The translations under genes were made by a program, and so were the position numbers. DNA of 64,000 bases, taken from Nitrosomonas halophila (GTDB lineage: Bacteria; Pseudomonadota; Gammaproteobacteria; Burkholderiales; Nitrosomonadaceae). Below are positions 35,629 through 45,950 of this stretch, piece by piece (position 1 is the stretch's first letter; every line of letters begins with the position of its first letter). The notes beneath the pieces are model-generated. The model saw only the letters and a program-made list of their open reading frames with translations. It searched no databases and had not been told where the DNA came from. The stretch spans positions 1-64,000 of the forward strand of contig NZ_FNOY01000003.1 of assembly GCF_900107165.1 (NCBI RefSeq). Direction: 5' to 3'.

Positions 35629-36372
35629 TTAATGCAGGGTTACGGCAGATTTATCCTCGCATTCGAGATCGGCGCAGTAGGTTTGGTGCACACCGTCCAG
35701 GAACTTCCAGAGTGCGTCACATGCTCGGCGTGTCGCGGCTAGCACTTCGGCCTGTTTCTCTGGCGTGTCGGCAAATTTTTCAATGATGGCCCATTCAGCC
35801 TGTGAATGATAAACATCCGCTTTTTGGTGGACCGAGAAAAATTCATAATCCTGGGGATTGTTCATGCCATAGAATTTGGCCAGGCCATCAATCTTGACGG
35901 CAGCAATATCGGGCACTTGTGATTCGAATGCGTGCAGGGCGGCCAGACCGGCATAGAACGGCTGGTTCAGGCAAATGTCACGGAAAGTGGAAACCAGATT
36001 CTGCGTTTCCGGCAGAGCATCGGCTTTCGCCAGGCTGGCATCGTCGGCACCTAGTGCGAATGCAAACGTTTTCCAGAGTGCAGGATGGTTTTTCTCGCCA
36101 TGCTCCTCGTCGATCAGGTTTTTCAGGACTTCCTGGCGTACGCTGATATCGCCACTGTTGCGCGTATCGTGGAAATGCGGTGTGTTGAAATGCACCGCGC
36201 TCAGGTAGGTCGGTTCAGCCAGAACGTTGTAAAAATATTGTTCGGCGTAATGGCGCAGCTGCTCTTTGGTGAGTTTGCCTTCCGTCCAGGCAATGTAGAA
36301 GGGGTGTTGCAGCAAATGTCTGCTTTGAATGATGGCATTGACCTGTTGCTTAAGTGTTTCGTTTGTGGCCAT
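35629..36372 (-). CDS. CADD-type para-aminobenzoate synthase, copy 1
   Basis: The 247-residue heme-oxygenase-like protein (PqqC/TENA superfamily) matches CADD of Chlamydia and the N. europaea protein shown to replace pabABC in pABA synthesis. By alignment from memory, Glu89, His96, Glu150, His182, Asp186 and His189 (HQKADVYH) are the dimetal ligands. Tyr26 (HPFYIAW) fits the tyrosine that CADD cleaves into pABA, and Lys160 (AAVKIDG) the lysine that supplies the amine. The ribosome site AGGAG precedes the ATG. It differs from copy 2 at four bases in the coding region, with one residue changed (Val244 against Ala). Confidence 0.88.
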   Translation of the reverse strand: MATNETLKQQVNAIIQSRHLLQHPFYIAWTEGKLTKEQLRHYAEQYFYNVLAEPTYLSAVHFNTPHFHDTRNSGDISVRQEVLKNLIDEEHGEKNHPALWKTFAFALGADDASLAKADALPETQNLVSTFRDICLNQPFYAGLAALHAFESQVPDIAAVKIDGLAKFYGMNNPQDYEFFSVHQKADVYHSQAEWAIIEKFADTPEKQAEVLAATRRACDALWKFLDGVHQTYCADLECEDKSAVTLH

Positions 36373-37844: not shown

Positions 37845-38588
37845 TTAATGCAGGGTTGCGGCAGATTTATCCTCGCATTCGAGATCGGCGCAGTAGGTTT
37901 GATGCACACCGTCCAGGAACTTCCAGAGTGCGTCACATGCCCGGCGTGTCGCGGCCAGCACTTCGGCCTGTTTCTCTGGCGTGTCGGCAAATTTTTCAAT
38001 GATGGCCCATTCAGCCTGTGAATGATAAACATCCGCTTTTTGGTGGACCGAGAAAAATTCATAATCCTGGGGATTGTTCATGCCATAGAATTTGGCCAGG
38101 CCATCAATCTTGACGGCAGCAATATCGGGCACTTGTGATTCGAATGCGTGCAGGGCGGCCAGACCGGCATAGAACGGCTGGTTCAGGCAAATGTCACGGA
38201 AAGTGGAAACCAGATTCTGCGTTTCCGGCAGAGCATCGGCTTTCGCCAGGCTGGCATCGTCGGCACCTAGTGCGAATGCAAACGTTTTCCAGAGTGCAGG
38301 ATGGTTTTTCTCGCCATGCTCCTCGTCGATCAGGTTTTTCAGGACTTCCTGGCGTACGCTGATATCGCCACTGTTGCGCGTATCGTGGAAATGCGGTGTG
38401 TTGAAATGCACCGCGCTCAGGTAGGTCGGTTCAGCCAGAACGTTGTAAAAATATTGTTCGGCGTAATGGCGCAGCTGCTCTTTGGTGAGTTTGCCTTCCG
38501 TCCAGGCAATGTAGAAGGGGTGTTGCAGCAAATGTCTGCTTTGAATGATGGCATTGACCTGTTGCTTAAGTGTTTCGTTTGTGGCCAT
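37845..38588 (-). CDS. CADD-type para-aminobenzoate synthase, copy 2
   Basis: The 247-residue product is identical to copy 1 except Ala244 for Val. All proposed metal ligands and the sacrificial Tyr26 and donor Lys160 are kept, so both copies should be active. The four coding differences all fall in the last 100 bases of the gene; the remaining 640 bases and the ribosome site are identical. Its 3' end faces metR and MITE A3; its start is divergent from glyA across 195 bp. pABA and GlyA both feed folate-dependent one-carbon metabolism. Confidence 0.88.
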   Translation of the reverse strand: MATNETLKQQVNAIIQSRHLLQHPFYIAWTEGKLTKEQLRHYAEQYFYNVLAEPTYLSAVHFNTPHFHDTRNSGDISVRQEVLKNLIDEEHGEKNHPALWKTFAFALGADDASLAKADALPETQNLVSTFRDICLNQPFYAGLAALHAFESQVPDIAAVKIDGLAKFYGMNNPQDYEFFSVHQKADVYHSQAEWAIIEKFADTPEKQAEVLAATRRACDALWKFLDGVHQTYCADLECEDKSAATLH

Positions 38589-40113: not shown

Positions 40114-40581
40114 ATGAGATGTCCATTTTGTGGTGCTGAAGATACCAGCGTCATCGATTCGCGCGAGAGCGAGGAGGGGACGAGGATCAGGCGCAGGCGG
40201 CGTTGTACCGCCTGTGAGAAGCGCTTTACTACCTACGAAACAATTGAATTACGATTTCCGCAGGTCATCAAGCAGGATGGCAACCGTGTCGAATTTGACC
40301 GGAACAAACTTTATACCAGTTTTACGCGGGCATTGCATAAGCGTCCGGTCCCGACCGAGCAGGTCGATGCGGCCTTGGAGCGAATTTTACAAAAACTCTT
40401 GAGTACGGGGGTCCAGGAAATTACCTCCCGCACCATCGGTGAATGGGTCATGCAAGAGCTCTATTCCCTGGATAAAGTCGCCTATATCCGTTTTGCCTCG
40501 GTCTACAGAAGCTTTGAAGACATAGGCGACTTTCAGGAAGTCATCCGGGAGGTTCAGTCACCTCCATCTGACAAGCAATGA
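40114..40581 (+). CDS. nrdR: transcriptional repressor NrdR
   Basis: The 155-residue protein starts with a zinc ribbon ([20 protein letters not shown], then CTACEKRF) followed by an ATP-cone domain ([16 protein letters not shown]). NrdR senses ATP/dATP and represses ribonucleotide reductase genes. The length is standard. It follows glyA and converges with the NeuB-like gene, 23 bp away. Confidence 0.97.
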
Positions 40582-40604: not shown

Positions 40605-42113
40605 TTACCAGCTTTCCAGAATGGTTTTGCGTTGCATCGGGTCCAGCTCTGCGATTTCCGGGTGCGCATAATAGGAATCCCCCACGATGCTATGGGTGGA
40701 AACTTCGGCAAAAATAGCGCCTGATCGGGTGGCAAAATCATGCATGGTGCCCCGCGGCACCAGCAATTTGTCGCCGGGTTTCAAATTGACCGACTCCTGC
40801 GTGTCTTGCTGGTGCAGATTGACCGACAGATCGCCCCACAACATGCAAAAGGTTTCCTCCTTCTGTTTGTGCATATGCGGCGGATGTTTCTGTCCGGGCA
40901 GCATGATCAGCAGTTTGTAGCAATACTCCCGGTTGATCAGGTTGACCAGAATACAGCCTGTTTCCCGGAAGCGGGGGAGGCCATAGTGATGCGAGATTTC
41001 AACCGTATAGTCATCGCCGAGAGAAATGCCTGCCTCATATAACTGACCTTTCGCATCATGCAGGATCCCCCGGATGAGCCGCATGGCATCTTGCTTGGGC
41101 GCTTCGAATACAGCCGAGCCGGTCACGTAATCGCGGGAGGCAACAAAATGCGCACGCAACTGACCGAATTCCCCGCTTGTCAGCTGTCCCTCTGCGCAAG
41201 GCATGGCGAAGAATACATCTTCTGACCGGATTTCTTCTCCCTGTGCGATGTTGCGTTTGACGAAAACTCCTCGCTGCAGCTCGCGCAGCGAGTCCTTTTC
41301 ATTTTGTATGACATGTTTCTCTTCACTCGCCCCGCAAATGGCGCGCATGCGCTCGGCAGCAGCCACCCACTGGTCAGCCTGCTCTGGATCCAGCGAGTAA
41401 GTGTTGAGTTGGATGTCGGGCGTTGCCACCCCGATGTGGCGCTCAAGCAAGCGCGCGCCCTTGGCGATGGCTGCCATGGCCACTTCGAGATTATCGGGTG
41501 CCTCATGGCCGGAATATCCGACTGACACATAGGGGTAACGGCGCATGATCTTGTTCAGGAAATTCATGTGAATGCGTTCGTTCGGCGTGGGGTAGAGCGA
41601 GACACAATGCATCAGTGCAAAAGCAGGTGCTCGTTTGTGCAGATAACTGACCAGATTGTCGATGTCATAGATGCTCAAGCCGCCAGTTGAAGCAATCACC
41701 GGCCGGTTGGCATCCGCGATGGCTGAAATCAACGGCCAGTCGGTTGCCGAGCAACTGGCAAGCTTCAATACCTGCACACCCAAAGCCTGGCAGGTTTGTA
41801 CCGACTGCTCATCGAACGGCGTGGCTACCGTGACCAGCCCCTGCTCACGGATCGCTTCCACCAACCGCTGAAAATCATCCATGGTCAAACGGGTGCTTTC
41901 AAAGCGGCCAATATGCTTGACGTCCGTGCGGCCCTTGTAATCTGGATGAATAAAGGTATCCAGTTCGCGCAGTTGCAACTTGACCGCCGCTTTGATCTGA
42001 TGTTTCCGGGCAATTTTGGCAGTTGCATCAATGATTTTCAGACCATGTTCCACGCTGCCCTGGTGGTTGTTGGCCATTTCAAAAATATACAATTGGTCTA
42101 ACAGTGTCTTCAT
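40605..42113 (-). CDS. NeuB-family nonulosonate synthase fused to SAF and cupin domains
   Basis: The 502-residue protein has a NeuB TIM-barrel domain (FEMANNHQGSVEHGLKII at the start; KLASCSATDWPLI; GYSGHE; LERHIG, residues 1-270), an SAF antifreeze-like domain (about 285-360, RGVFVKRNIAQGEEI), and a C-terminal cupin (about 385-490, HPPHMHKQKEETFCMLWGD) with metal-type His and Glu. NeuB enzymes join phosphoenolpyruvate to an amino sugar to give sialic acid-like nonulosonates. The added cupin may be an epimerase, an isomerase or a sensor. It is the last gene of a four-gene minus-strand cluster. Confidence 0.85.
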   Translation of the reverse strand: MKTLLDQLYIFEMANNHQGSVEHGLKIIDATAKIARKHQIKAAVKLQLRELDTFIHPDYKGRTDVKHIGRFESTRLTMDDFQRLVEAIREQGLVTVATPFDEQSVQTCQALGVQVLKLASCSATDWPLISAIADANRPVIASTGGLSIYDIDNLVSYLHKRAPAFALMHCVSLYPTPNERIHMNFLNKIMRRYPYVSVGYSGHEAPDNLEVAMAAIAKGARLLERHIGVATPDIQLNTYSLDPEQADQWVAAAERMRAICGASEEKHVIQNEKDSLRELQRGVFVKRNIAQGEEIRSEDVFFAMPCAEGQLTSGEFGQLRAHFVASRDYVTGSAVFEAPKQDAMRLIRGILHDAKGQLYEAGISLGDDYTVEISHHYGLPRFRETGCILVNLINREYCYKLLIMLPGQKHPPHMHKQKEETFCMLWGDLSVNLHQQDTQESVNLKPGDKLLVPRGTMHDFATRSGAIFAEVSTHSIVGDSYYAHPEIAELDPMQRKTILESW

Positions 42114-42303
42114 GATCGCCCTTGAACAATATTTTTACTTGAGAGTCTGGAAACAATTCGTCTGTGTGACAGAGTGACGAGTAAGCGTGGGCTGATGCTT
42201 CGTTTATCGGGCGGAATATCTGATGGTTGGATCAGGTTGGTCACGGCACGGTCCGTGAGCGGGTTTTTATCTGGATGTGGTAATACAAAAGCATGCATGT
42301 CCA

Positions 42304-43365
42304 TCAACAATGCTGTAACGCCTCTTGTAATGTGATCAGCCGATCGTCGATATAATAATCCGCTGCAGGCTTGCCAAACTGCAGGGCATGAAAGCGCACC
42401 TTCCAGTCAGTCATCTGTTTGCGGGTCACATCCTGCCAATCTATGCCGGTGGCCGAGCCGCGTGCAGTAAACAAAATAATCCTGTGGCCCGCTTCATACA
42501 ATCGATTGATGATGGCAATATTTTCCTGTATGGGCTCGCTCAGCGTGTAATCGTTATTGGCGACCAATGATGCCAGTACGCCATCGATATCCACCACGAA
42601 GGTTTTGAACGGTGCCGCTGCACCTTCCTGGCGTACTCTCAGCTGGGGAGCATGCTGGCTTGCTTGCTTGTTCAGCAAGCATTCTGCCTGGTCGAGATCG
42701 TCTTCGCTATCGATGCTCAGCATGGGCGTGTCAATCACGACTGCTGCGCTGCGCGCGCCCATGAGCGCAGACTGGGTGAGCAGACATGCACGGGTCAGGG
42801 CATAGGCTGCGCCATTTCGATGGTATACAGGCTTGAGCTGCTGGCGGGCGATAATGTCTGCGCCACGCTGATCCCATAACCCGAGCATGGCATCATCATC
42901 CAACGCCAGCTGTTTGAGCGGATGATATTTGAGATCGGTCGGACTGACTGTCCAGACGGCATCAAAGTTGCCTTGCACCAGTTTCTCGACTGTTGCGGCC
43001 ACATGTTCCGGCAAGCGCAGGGGGGAAGTCGGTTGCAGCATGAGAATGATGTCATATTCGCAGCCATCGATCGATTCCATCGCCTGTAAAGCATGTTGCA
43101 ATACCGGAATGTCACCAATCCGATCCCCGGAAAGTTCGGCCGGCCGCCAGAATGGCGCGGCGAGGCCAGCTTGCTCGGCGGTTCGGGCGATTTCCGGATG
43201 ATCGGTGGAGACGACCGCGCGATCGATCCAGCCCAGTTCGCGCACCAGTTGTCCGACATGCCCGACCAGGGAAGTGCCGCCAATTTTGCGTAAATTTTTC
43301 AATGGCACGCCCTTGCTGCCTCCGCGGGCAGGTACGACAGCCAGTACTTTTCTTTGTGCGTACAT
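42304..43365 (-). CDS. NeuA-like cytidylyltransferase fused to HAD phosphatase
   Basis: The 353-residue protein starts with a CMP-nonulosonate synthetase-type domain (VVPARGGSKGVPLKNLRKIGG, residues 10-30; MLQPTSPLR), about 230 residues. A HAD-like domain follows (VVDIDGVLASL near residue 255; LFTARGS; a final DDR). Together these would activate a nonulosonate with CTP and remove a phosphate. Fusion of a cytidylyltransferase to a HAD domain is known in sialic acid-type pathways. It is separated by 190 bp from the NeuB-like gene, a gap without a supported gene. Confidence 0.85.
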   Translation of the reverse strand: MYAQRKVLAVVPARGGSKGVPLKNLRKIGGTSLVGHVGQLVRELGWIDRAVVSTDHPEIARTAEQAGLAAPFWRPAELSGDRIGDIPVLQHALQAMESIDGCEYDIILMLQPTSPLRLPEHVAATVEKLVQGNFDAVWTVSPTDLKYHPLKQLALDDDAMLGLWDQRGADIIARQQLKPVYHRNGAAYALTRACLLTQSALMGARSAAVVIDTPMLSIDSEDDLDQAECLLNKQASQHAPQLRVRQEGAAAPFKTFVVDIDGVLASLVANNDYTLSEPIQENIAIINRLYEAGHRIILFTARGSATGIDWQDVTRKQMTDWKVRFHALQFGKPAADYYIDDRLITLQEALQHC

Positions 43366-43383
43366 ATGCGAGGGTTCAGGCGG

Positions 43384-44481
43384 CTACTGCAGCGAGTCTG
43401 GACCGTAGGGACGACCATAATCAATTTTAACCACGCGTCCGGTTGCGTGCGAGCGGAGCGCAGCTGCGATCACCAGCATGGTTTCCATTCCCTGCTGGAG
43501 GGAGATGGGTGAAATTTGCCCTGGATTTGTGAGCAGATCGCCGACATGCGCAATTTCGGGCTGAAAATCATCTGGCCTGGTTTTTTCGAAGTATTGCAAT
43601 TGTTCGGGTTTGCCCTGCAATTGCAGCTTGACGGCATCCATGCCCGGCTTGAGATTGATAAACCAGTCTATGTAGCCATTCTCGCCTTGCAGCCGCAATT
43701 GCTTGTCAGCCGGCTCTGTGATGACATCCTGGACCAATAAGCCGGTCAGGCCACTTTCGGTGCGCAGATTGAGTTGCGCCAATCGATCATAGCAGGCGCC
43801 ACGTTCCTCGACCATATCGAGCATCGCTGACACCTCGACAATCCGCCCATGACCACTGAGATGCGCAAAATGCTGCCAAATGGCTAATCCATGCGAATGC
43901 TCGCCAAGTGCGCCCCCCCCGCGTTCGGTATAGCCAAGATAGGTTTCTTCCGGGCCGGAAATCCAGGGATGGGCTTTGAAAATGCCTTGCCAGTGTTCTC
44001 TAATCTGGGCGTGAATGGTTAATATCTTGCCGAGCGAACCGGCCTGCAGCCATTGTTCTGTCAGGCGCGTGTTGGGCGTCAGGGTATGGTTGTAACCGAC
44101 CAGAACCTGAACGCCCAATGATTCTGCCCGGCTGCGTAATTGTTCGCAATCAGCCAGGGAAGGGGGGCATAATGGTTTTTCGATCAAAAGCAATTTTGGT
44201 GGGCGCTGTTTCAGGATGTCGAGCGCTATTTTGATATGTGTGTCGGGCGGCGTGCCGATGATGACGACATCAAAATTTTCTTCGCTCATAGCTTCGGGAT
44301 GCGCCAGTCGAATGGTTTCATCCCAGCGACCATAACGGTTGGGATAGATTTCCGTGCGGGTACGCTCGAGTGCAGCCGGATCGATATCGCACAGCACAAC
44401 TTCCCAGTCCTGCTGCCGGCATCCATATGCGAGATGATTGCCGATTGAACCGGCTCCGATAATTTTTACTTTAGTTTTCAT
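43384..44481 (-). CDS. Gfo/Idh/MocA-family oxidoreductase
   Basis: The 365-residue protein has an N-terminal Rossmann fold (KIIGAGSIGNHLAYGCRQQ), the EKP motif (LLIEKPLCPP) with the usual catalytic Lys, and a C-terminal alpha/beta domain with GGGALGEHSHG. Such enzymes oxidise, reduce or epimerise sugars with NAD(P). In this cluster it probably modifies the nonulosonate or its precursor; the exact reaction is not readable. It lies 18 bp upstream of the NeuA-like gene. Confidence 0.8.
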   Translation of the reverse strand: MKTKVKIIGAGSIGNHLAYGCRQQDWEVVLCDIDPAALERTRTEIYPNRYGRWDETIRLAHPEAMSEENFDVVIIGTPPDTHIKIALDILKQRPPKLLLIEKPLCPPSLADCEQLRSRAESLGVQVLVGYNHTLTPNTRLTEQWLQAGSLGKILTIHAQIREHWQGIFKAHPWISGPEETYLGYTERGGGALGEHSHGLAIWQHFAHLSGHGRIVEVSAMLDMVEERGACYDRLAQLNLRTESGLTGLLVQDVITEPADKQLRLQGENGYIDWFINLKPGMDAVKLQLQGKPEQLQYFEKTRPDDFQPEIAHVGDLLTNPGQISPISLQQGMETMLVIAAALRSHATGRVVKIDYGRPYGPDSLQ

Positions 44482-44576
44482 AGCCTAGAGGTAGTGCGAA
44501 TTTTATAATGAGTAATCTCTAATTTTGGGTGTGTCCGAGCAGTGCGCTGGCCATCCATCGCCACTTCCGTTTACTG

Positions 44577-45950
44577 TCACTGAATCATAAACACATTTTC
44601 GGTCAGCTCCTTGATGCGCAGCTTCTGAAAGCGGCCCAGCTGACTGCCCATGCGTTGTATTTGATATTCGACATCTGCGCTAGAGGTAAGTGGAAACATA
44701 TGCCGCAGATAGTTGGTATTATTGCGATGCCCCGGTAATTGGGCTTCAATGCGTTTCTTGATCGCTTTGCGCCAGTAAGCCGTGCTCAATCCTACCGCCC
44801 GCGTCAGCAGCGGAGGGCGACTCTGCACGGACTGTTTTTTCAGCTGATGAATGACCGATACCAGCCGTTCGCATGATGTTGTGCCGTCATACGAGGCCAG
44901 ATGATGGCGGGCCAAGTCCTTGCGTTGCTGAATATGCTGCGCATCCAGTGCTGTGCTGTCGACCAGCGCCTGCTTGATCCAGTCCAATAGGGTGGACAGA
45001 TTCTGGCATTGAATGCTGAGATTGTTGGGCAGTGGATGGTCATAGGCTTCGGCGGTTACCGGGCAATAGGCCAAGGCGGTGCGATCGAGCAGGAAAGATT
45101 CGACTGCTGTCGTGCAACTATTGTGAACGGTTACGGCTGCCGCCATCAACCAGGGAACGACATTGCCTTCATAAAGCACCCGTACGTTGCTGCAATGGCG
45201 GGTCGCCTCGATCCAGGTGGCGTGATTCTCGGACGGATGCGGGCGAATCACAACTGTGATTTCGGGAAACGCTTCGCCCACCGCTGCCACCATTTTCAGG
45301 AAATGCTCGAAAATCGTCTTTTTATGGATGGCCATACCGAGCTTGGGGTCGCTGGGTTGTCCCTGCTTGTGTTTCTGGGCTTCGAGCAGATTGAGTAGAT
45401 GACTTTCACCCGGATAGTAATGATTGATCCGGGAGAAATTGGTATTGATCAACACAAATTTACCATAGCGCGCACGCAATTCATCCGTCTGCTGGTTGAA
45501 AAGTCCGCGCAGCGCTGGCCGGAGCAGATCTGTGCGTGGATTGCCGGTCAAATGCAGTGGCGCGTTGGTGAAGCTGGGATGGTCGCGGATGGCCGCTGCA
45601 TTGGCCTCTCCCCAGGCAAAGATGCATGAAGGTTCCCGAAGTGCGTGGGCATCCAGTTTTGTCAGGCGATACAGTTCGGGTGTGGCCCATACCAGTCCTT
45701 CCTCATCCCAGGCCGTGACGGTGAAGCCTAACCGCCGCAGCATGCGCAAAACAGTTGCGCTGCGCACAGTCATGCTCTTGCCAATGTAGAGGCCCCGCGG
45801 CAGGGATGTGGCCATTTTGTCGATCACTTTTTTGGCGCCAACGATAGTGGGCAGACCGCTTTCGGCAAGATGACAGGCGAGCAGTAGTTTGGCATCGAAT
45901 TCACGCGCTCGCGTTTCGCAGGGGAGTATTACGATATCATCATTCATCAT
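44577..45950 (-). CDS. surface carbohydrate biosynthesis protein, likely GT-B glycosyltransferase
   Basis: The 457-residue protein resembles the surface carbohydrate biosynthesis family found with sialic acid-like operons. It has a Rossmann-like N-terminal half and a C-terminal nucleotide-sugar half with VVIRPHPSENHATW and VHNSCTTAVESFLL, a pattern like that of transferases and polymerases of capsule sugars. The last 80 residues are basic. It heads the four-gene cluster; the predicted job is transfer of the CMP-sugar made by its neighbours. Donor and acceptor are unknown. Confidence 0.7.
   Translation of the reverse strand: MMNDDIVILPCETRAREFDAKLLLACHLAESGLPTIVGAKKVIDKMATSLPRGLYIGKSMTVRSATVLRMLRRLGFTVTAWDEEGLVWATPELYRLTKLDAHALREPSCIFAWGEANAAAIRDHPSFTNAPLHLTGNPRTDLLRPALRGLFNQQTDELRARYGKFVLINTNFSRINHYYPGESHLLNLLEAQKHKQGQPSDPKLGMAIHKKTIFEHFLKMVAAVGEAFPEITVVIRPHPSENHATWIEATRHCSNVRVLYEGNVVPWLMAAAVTVHNSCTTAVESFLLDRTALAYCPVTAEAYDHPLPNNLSIQCQNLSTLLDWIKQALVDSTALDAQHIQQRKDLARHHLASYDGTTSCERLVSVIHQLKKQSVQSRPPLLTRAVGLSTAYWRKAIKKRIEAQLPGHRNNTNYLRHMFPLTSSADVEYQIQRMGSQLGRFQKLRIKELTENVFMIQ

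Follow-up and report, generated by a model that had tools for sequence, protein, structure and literature searches.

Domain architecture of the operon

The 64,000-nucleotide stretch of Nitrosomonas halophila DNA analysed here (contig NZ_FNOY01000003.1, positions 1 to 64,000; hereafter the window) carries, at 40605-45950 on its minus strand, an operon of four genes, two of which encode fusion proteins related to the enzymes that condense and activate nonulosonates. A first-pass annotation made from the sequence alone had placed a NeuB-SAF-cupin and a NeuA-HAD fusion here, and its coordinates proved exact: an open reading frame check of the window confirmed four intact minus-strand frames, and Pfam and TIGR profiles found the domains. 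The genes and their domains are as follows, with PEP standing for phosphoenolpyruvate and CMP for cytidine monophosphate.

40605..42113, minus strand: NeuB-SAF-cupin protein (NeuB-cupin below), 502 aa, a predicted PEP-condensing ulosonate synthase fused to a ketol-isomerase-like cupin (from domains and a predicted model)
41319..42113, minus strand: NeuB TIM-barrel, residues ~1-265 (Pfam NeuB at 43-263; the model matches 3g8r, NmNeuB and PseI)
41100..41306, minus strand: SAF (antifreeze-like) domain, residues ~270-338 (weak SAF profile match, structural match to 3g8r; M304 at the position of NmNeuB Arg314)
40608..41099, minus strand: D-lyxose-isomerase-like cupin, residues ~339-502 (H413, H415, K418, E420, H458)
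42304..43365, minus strand: NeuA-HAD fusion, 353 aa, a predicted CMP-ulosonate synthetase with a C-terminal HAD phosphatase domain
42670..43365, minus strand: NeuA cytidylyltransferase domain, residues ~1-232 (PF02348, CTP_transf_3, E 5.6e-20; structure 1eyr, E 8.6e-41)
42304..42621, minus strand: HAD domain, residues ~249-353 (DIDGV, TARG, GKP and IDDR motifs)
43384..44481, minus strand: Gfo/Idh/MocA oxidoreductase, 365 aa, accessory (Pfam E 9.5e-14)
44577..45950, minus strand: TIGR04396 surface carbohydrate biosynthesis protein, 457 aa, a candidate ulosonate transferase (family profile)

In operon order the intergenic gaps measure 95, 18 and 190 bp. The arrangement goes beyond chance, because close homologues keep the same order in other genomes; a search for sigma-70-like promoters gave no excess (4 matches against a mean of 6.8 in shuffles). 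The protein encoded at 45950-44577 scores 337.5 bits against the TIGR04396 profile, above its cut-off of 125, and is predicted to transfer an ulosonate. The nonulosonate-type pathway that had been proposed for these genes is supported.

The synthase part of NeuB-cupin is recognised by Pfam NeuB (PF03102) over residues 43-263 (E 2.6e-42; 145.4 bits against a gathering cut-off of 22.1), and the SAF hidden Markov model matches weakly, below its cut-off (E 0.07). In the predicted model (pLDDT, a per-residue confidence score, 93.1), residues 6-339 align by VIA-align with the NeuB-SAF structure 3g8r, which is also the closest structure by Foldseek (E 6.7e-41, 44% identity), followed by Neisseria NeuB and Campylobacter PseI; the VIA-align matches cover mainly the NeuB barrel, and the cupin assignment rests on Foldseek and sequence. 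This best structural match, a solved SpsE-like protein of Chromobacterium violaceum whose entry title gives a putative name only, belongs to the same NeuB-SAF clade as the window protein but is a 350-residue chain without a cupin. Two further cupin-less relatives, in genomes G187 and G427, come from open frames 371 and 394 aa long, with the match spanning residues 2-315. Against the curated models for N-acetylneuraminate synthase (TIGR03569) and pseudaminic acid synthase (TIGR03586), the window protein reaches 155 and 133.8 bits, below the respective cut-offs of 399.65 and 340.25.

The NeuB-SAF fold and the condensation with PEP are common to Neisseria NeuB (1xuu) and to SpsE of the Bacillus subtilis legionaminate pathway as described in PMC7439481, both of which keep an Arg that is Met here. 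According to earlier work reported in PMC6795526, this residue, Arg314 of NmNeuB, is essential and positions the N-acetyl group. In the printed profile alignment, where the R314A and R314K chains are shown, M304 falls in the Arg314 column and SpsE (1vli) keeps Arg; among 50 sequences the position holds Met in 49 and Ile in one. Comparison of the NeuB active site with those of other synthases, suggested in the first-pass annotation, thus turned up an altered site, and Met at this position would fit a substrate without an N-acetyl group. The basic loop residues R49, H56 and R70 of the NeuB domain are invariant in all 50.

The C-terminal domain is a cupin (Pfam match at residues 402-464, E 4.4e-7) whose best PDB profile matches are the D-lyxose isomerases 7nzo from Thermofilum (E 1.7e-14, residues 336-490) and 2y0o from B. 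subtilis (6.8e-13), followed by quercetin dioxygenase cupins (1.1e-10) and then a mannose-6-phosphate (Man-6-P) isomerase cupin (3.8e-7). Foldseek returned 7nzp (E 7.2e-12), 2y0o (8.6e-12) and the Escherichia coli sugar isomerase 3kmh (1.4e-10). The D-lyxose isomerase family PF07385 is matched at 25.2 bits, above its gathering cut-off of 20.8, but only over profile positions 83-133 of 222, and the D-lyxose/D-mannose isomerase model NF051472 at 12.3 bits against an equivalog cut-off of 350. In the Thermofilum enzyme (TsLI), the Mn ligands are H75, H77, E88 and H143, with a possible assisting role for K86, as reported in PMC8378251. These residues (H75, H77, K86, E88 and H143) align with H413, H415, K418, E420 and H458 of the window protein, of which the first is His in 44 and Gln in six of the 50 sequences and the other four are each present in 50/50. 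Since the lyxose isomerases rank first and the metal and catalytic positions are kept, our best guess is that the cupin is a ketol-isomerase. This D-lyxose-isomerase likeness, by sequence and by model, gives substance to the earlier suggestion that the cupin may supply a sugar-changing step. The D-lyxose isomerases with which it shares its fold and its metal and catalytic positions (7nzo, 2y0o and 3kmh) differ in standing alone, unfused to NeuB.

For the NeuA domain of the second fusion protein, Foldseek ranks CMP-sialate-type synthetases ahead of KdsB, so that it is closer to these than to synthetases for CMP-3-deoxy-D-manno-octulosonate (CMP-Kdo). The C-terminal domain, which we take to be a capless HAD, matches the 'Capsule biosynthesis protein' structure 9iqw (E 3.3e-11). 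Across 59 sequences its motifs are well kept: the first and the second Asp in 56 each, Thr and Lys in 58 each, and the Asp-Asp pair in 59/59.

Distribution of the NeuB-cupin/NeuA-HAD pair

We searched 120 genomes of the family, 369 of the class and 399 of the order for NeuB-cupin. Full-length copies were found in four of the family genomes: the window's own (G000) and three relatives, two of which (G011 and G116) carry NeuB-cupin, NeuA-HAD and Gfo/Idh beside tyrS without the TIGR04396 gene, and the third (G107) all four genes on a different contig from its tyrS. The class genomes added three more matches spanning at least 484 of the 502 residues (E 1e-30 or better), and the order genomes gave eight at E 1e-110 or better, the window and G011 among them. 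Scanning named genomes yielded 341 relatives; the titles of the best 80, many of them metagenome-assembled genomes, include Wenzhouxiangella, Myxococcota, Verrucomicrobia, Lachnospiraceae, Cytophagales and other Bacteroidetes, Chloroflexi and others. So patchy a distribution looks like the outcome of horizontal transfer. Among plasmid and phage records, none had one place covering 80% of NeuB-cupin; the NeuB part alone matched 93 plasmid records and three of four phage records, and the fourth phage record matched the cupin part.

For counts of gene neighbourhoods, the best 80 of the 341 were joined with L023, L033, L034, L035 and the window to give 85 distinct loci, L022 and L024 being left out as duplicates of L038 and L039 (the same contigs as G116 and G107). 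A NeuA-HAD fusion lies near NeuB-cupin in 56 of the 85, drawn from several phyla, in 50 cases within 500 bp and in all within 2 kb on the same strand. Gfo/Idh (within 3.5 kb) occurs in 22/85 loci and the TIGR04396 gene in 17/85, and because they are present in these loci only we regard both as add-ons. The four genes that had been annotated as a set are all present in the window, but the conserved module is the NeuB-cupin/NeuA-HAD pair and not the foursome.

A Maf-like gene was found in 25 of the 85 loci and a flagellin-like gene in 21, with one or both in 26, whose titles name Lachnospiraceae, other Clostridia or an unassigned 'bacterium'. Flagellin was named by eye, and Maf identity was tested on one representative, which matched NF050051 at E 1.5e-42 but at 146 of 670 bits. 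A locus with Maf, NeuA-HAD and NeuB-cupin occurs, for instance, in the cultured species Anaeromicropila populeti (L079). In Clostridia, NeuB-cupin looks tied to flagellin glycosylation.

A proposed route and its alternatives

The first-pass annotation had noted that the usual early enzymes are missing from the operon, and the gap persisted when the whole of the window's own genome and those of relatives were searched for PseB, LegC, Epimerase_2/NeuC and NanE (LegB, PseC, PseG, PseH and NeuD-type proteins lay outside these searches). No protein exceeded the PseB cut-off (TIGR03589, 408 bits) in eight genomes (G000, G011, G107, G116, G346, G398, G090 and G007), and a search for LegC (TIGR04181) found none in G000, G011 or G107. 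Epimerase_2 proteins are present in seven of the eight genomes (none in G346). The single copies of G000 and of the complete relative G011 are WecB (310 and 314 bits; cut-off 210), as is the G116 copy, and reach 76 and 82 bits against the NeuC (TIGR03568) cut-off of 236. NanE did not exceed its cut-off in any of six genomes, and type I Man-6-P isomerase was found in 0/6.

From the computed domains, catalytic positions, gene pairing and early-enzyme searches, we infer a compact pathway whose product is a deaminated (non-N-acylated) ulosonic acid activated with CMP, most simply CMP-Kdn (Kdn, ketodeoxynononic acid) from fructose-6-phosphate, a reading to which we give an even chance. The cupin domain would turn a ketose phosphate into an aldose phosphate by isomerisation (in the simplest case, fructose-6-phosphate into Man-6-P); the NeuB-SAF domain of the same chain would then condense the aldose phosphate with PEP to an ulosonate phosphate, either Kdn-9-phosphate or a compound closely related to it; dephosphorylation would fall to the HAD domain of NeuA-HAD; and the NeuA domain would convert the free ulosonate to CMP-ulosonate. 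Where present, the TIGR04396 protein would transfer the sugar to a surface glycan, with Maf in this role elsewhere, and Gfo/Idh may provide an optional tailoring step. The missing early genes may be explained in this way, because an in-built isomerase and phosphatase would replace them. The first-pass interpretation is largely upheld, and the altered NeuB site and the early enzymes not found agree with it, but its idea of an unusual product from a different precursor stands in part only: the isomerase and phosphatase may account for the gap, and Kdn from a central phosphosugar would suffice.

A phosphorylated route to Kdn is known in Bacteroides thetaiotaomicron and Prymnesium parvum (PMC6200933), where, as proposed here, a synthase, a phosphatase and a CMP-synthetase suffice and the starting point is a central phosphosugar, Man-6-P. 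NeuB-cupin and NeuA-HAD, with their conserved motifs, would make up such a set. As far as the account in PMC6200933 goes, neither a NeuB-isomerase nor a NeuA-HAD fusion is described there; the HAD domain here matches another HAD model, and Kdn is here a predicted product. The legionaminate pathway of SpsE, as described in PMC7439481, also uses SpsM, C, D and G, unlike the operon here.

Phosphatases of another kind bear on the proposed phosphorylated intermediate. L033 and L034 (by Pfam) carry a HAD gene of another type (HAD_2) no more than ~5 kb from NeuB-cupin, as do six of seven loci where NeuB-cupin adjoins a thiamine diphosphate (ThDP) enzyme (L035 and L130-L135). The HAD_2 profile was seeded from L033, L034, L035, L130, L131 and L134, six of those eight loci; it newly found L132 and L133, with weaker or more distant matches in L045, L070 and L105. 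Because different phosphatases adjoin the same synthase, an intermediate carrying a phosphate may be argued for.

Several observations weigh against the proposed pathway. The fusion is not universal: NeuA lacks a same-chain HAD in 18 of the 85 loci, and no NeuA was seen in the examined stretch of 11 others, in some because of contig ends. Among the 26 loci with Maf or flagellin, only 11 have the NeuA-HAD fusion, 11 have NeuA without it and in four no NeuA was found, and 12 of the 18 unfused-NeuA loci are Clostridia by title, where neither HAD profile found a partner. The seven ThDP loci likewise show no NeuA in the examined stretch, so the product of NeuB-cupin is not always CMP-activated. Proteins resembling early enzymes do occur below the cut-offs: G107 and G000 have PseB-like ones (329 and 183 bits against 408, that of G000 in a 652-aa frame), LegC relatives occur in G116, G346 and G398, and both G000 and G011 have a match to NanE. 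A protein of the ManC/AlgA-type Man-6-P isomerase family was found in 6/6 genomes, so Man-6-P needs no cupin, and quercetin dioxygenase cupins outscore the Man-6-P isomerase cupin in the profile search. TsLI prefers free D-lyxose and has <2% activity on mannose, other lyxose isomerases being broader, as reported in PMC8378251. The HAD domain matches the EcbF/BcbF model TIGR01689 weakly (22.1 bits; cut-off 162), and a Kdn-9-phosphate phosphatase model was not among its profile matches. The NeuA domain matches the CMP-Neu5Ac (N-acetylneuraminate) synthetase 1eyr (E 8.6e-41) better than it does 9t4z, the CMP-Kdn synthetase of P. parvum (3.1e-20), which neither proves nor excludes Kdn. The Gfo/Idh step, finally, is unexplained by the proposed pathway.

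An alternative, which we think unlikely but which retains real weight, is that the sugar is not nine-carbon and that the isomerase feeds NeuB with a pentose or heptose phosphate (D-lyxose-5-phosphate from xylulose-5-phosphate, for example, or an aldoheptose-7-phosphate from sedoheptulose-7-phosphate), giving a C8 or C10 3-deoxy-ulosonate. The closeness of the cupin to isomerases of D-lyxose, a pentose, the scores of this NeuB clade far below the NeuB and PseI cut-offs and the invariance of R49, H56 and R70 in the 50 sequences all favour this, and since the ManC/AlgA-type protein can already make Man-6-P, a dedicated isomerase suggests another sugar. The NeuA domain, however, is closest to CMP-sialate-type synthetases and not to KdsB, and the Maf-like partners found in Clostridia are typical of nine-carbon sugars. 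The Maf argument is tempered by the report of one Maf that accepts Kdo (PMC11339370).

Less probable again is that the cupin does not feed NeuB and instead alters the ulosonate after condensation, in the manner of an epimerase, or is structural, with the phosphosugar coming from elsewhere. Cupins are functionally diverse, quercetin dioxygenases are among the matches, and relatives without a cupin exist (3g8r, G187 and G427), yet the isomerase-type residues H415, K418, E420 and H458 are invariant in 50/50, and an alternative Nitrosomonas cassette in the same slot of two genomes has a NeuB that carries a xylose-isomerase-like barrel instead. Very improbable is that the operon serves a standard Neu5Ac, legionaminic or pseudaminic acid pathway whose early steps are encoded at other places in the genome: NeuB and NeuA homology, the sub-cut-off PseB match of G000 (183 bits in the 652-aa frame) and its WecB-type epimerase would suit it, but G000 and G011 have no PseB or NanE above cut-off, no LegC was found in them, their epimerase is WecB and not NeuC, and the Arg314 position is Met, and on the negative PseB, LegC, NeuC and NanE searches we set the standard pathways aside as the main reading.

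Returning to the isomerase-synthase and phosphatase-cytidylyltransferase pair, a broader proposition that we advance only tentatively is that it represents an undescribed and widespread two-protein route that leads directly from a central ketose phosphate to an activated ulosonic acid free of nitrogen, which may be a new C8 or C10 compound and not Kdn, and would serve flagella in Clostridia and swappable surface-glycan cassettes in Nitrosomonas. Among the papers listed by literature searches, none described a NeuB-cupin or NeuB-isomerase fusion. If true, this would be a way of making an activated analogue of sialic acid from a sugar phosphate with two proteins. If it makes Kdn or a relative, the signature of a NeuB-isomerase fusion, no Arg314 and NeuA-HAD would allow genomes to be searched for producers of deaminated nonulosonates, Clostridia with such flagellar loci among them. 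As reported in PMC10483923, Kdn ranked second in abundance among the nonulosonates of three of four extracellular polymeric substance preparations from granular sludge, with little in one sludge, and annotation did not let the authors distinguish Kdn synthases from those for Neu5Ac; a small amount was reported from an Accumulibacter enrichment (PMC8053191). Neither account, as far as it goes, shows Kdn made by Nitrosomonas.

The nrdR-tyrS slot and other neighbourhoods

In the window, G011 and G116, the cupin cassette sits between two genes that bound a recurrent slot:

40114..40581, plus strand: nrdR-type gene (a name we assume from the sequence), the slot's left edge, kept in L022, L023, L140, L145 and L146
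45986..47194, minus strand: presumably tyrS, the slot's right edge, 35 bp upstream of the operon's first gene and in the same direction

In G007 and G067 (seen here as loci L145 and L146) the same slot holds a different five-gene cassette, made up of an SDR, a Gfo/Idh protein, NeuA, a 749-aa CBS-NeuB-SAF-xylose-isomerase-like protein and a TIGR04396 protein (domains from the G090 copy). In G090 itself nrdR and tyrS lie ~0.4 kb apart and the alternative cassette sits elsewhere; it occurs in other surroundings in G081, G096 and G102. The two cassettes share gene types and a NeuB fused to an isomerase-like domain, but in the alternative one this domain (AP_endonuc_2) has a different isomerase-like fold, NeuA has no HAD, an SDR is added and the NeuB proteins are only 26-28% identical to those of the cupin cassette. 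The alternative NeuB has Ser in the Arg314 column (G090 copy), and its xylose-isomerase-like domain found no clear PDB relative by sequence (best E 0.0096). Cassette swapping at one locus suggests related roles, and the slot as a whole suggests surface-glycan switching in ammonia oxidisers.

In the ThDP loci NeuB-cupin is more distant (41-43% identity in L130-L134, from other class and order genomes), and four of them (L035, L131, L133 and L135) also hold CDP-glucose-type genes, named by eye. A comparable pairing is known from Shewanella, where SfmA (with a NeuB domain) and SfmB (ThDP) modify flagellin, as described in PMC3765264; by analogy, the ThDP enzyme may use the ulosonate as a 2-keto acid donor for long branched sugars. 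At L036, a NeuB that belongs to the same clade but lacks the cupin (39%) has a dehydroquinate-synthase-like gene and a ThDP enzyme for neighbours, which suggests a carbocyclic sugar pathway. A second NeuB-family gene (26-31% identity where scored) lies near NeuB-cupin in L082, L085, L092, L093 and L094, as though these bacteria made two nonulosonates in parallel.

A link to sphingolipids was considered and dropped. In one Nitrosomonas (L024, 11487-15707) a fatty-acyl-AMP ligase, an SDR and a serine palmitoyltransferase (578 bits, cut-off 500) lie beside the cassette, and these neighbour sequence clusters recur in Wenzhouxiangellaceae loci (among L047-L054). The transferase family is present in 116/120 family genomes, so serine palmitoyltransferase beside the cassette is uninformative, and the adjacency of the three genes is probably incidental.

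Elsewhere in the window, two near-identical 247-aa genes (35629-36372 and 37845-38588), which we take to be PqqC/TenA-like, flank a further gene, presumably of LysR type; at the corresponding place in the relatives L022, L023, L145 and L146 the PqqC/TenA-like gene is present as a single copy.

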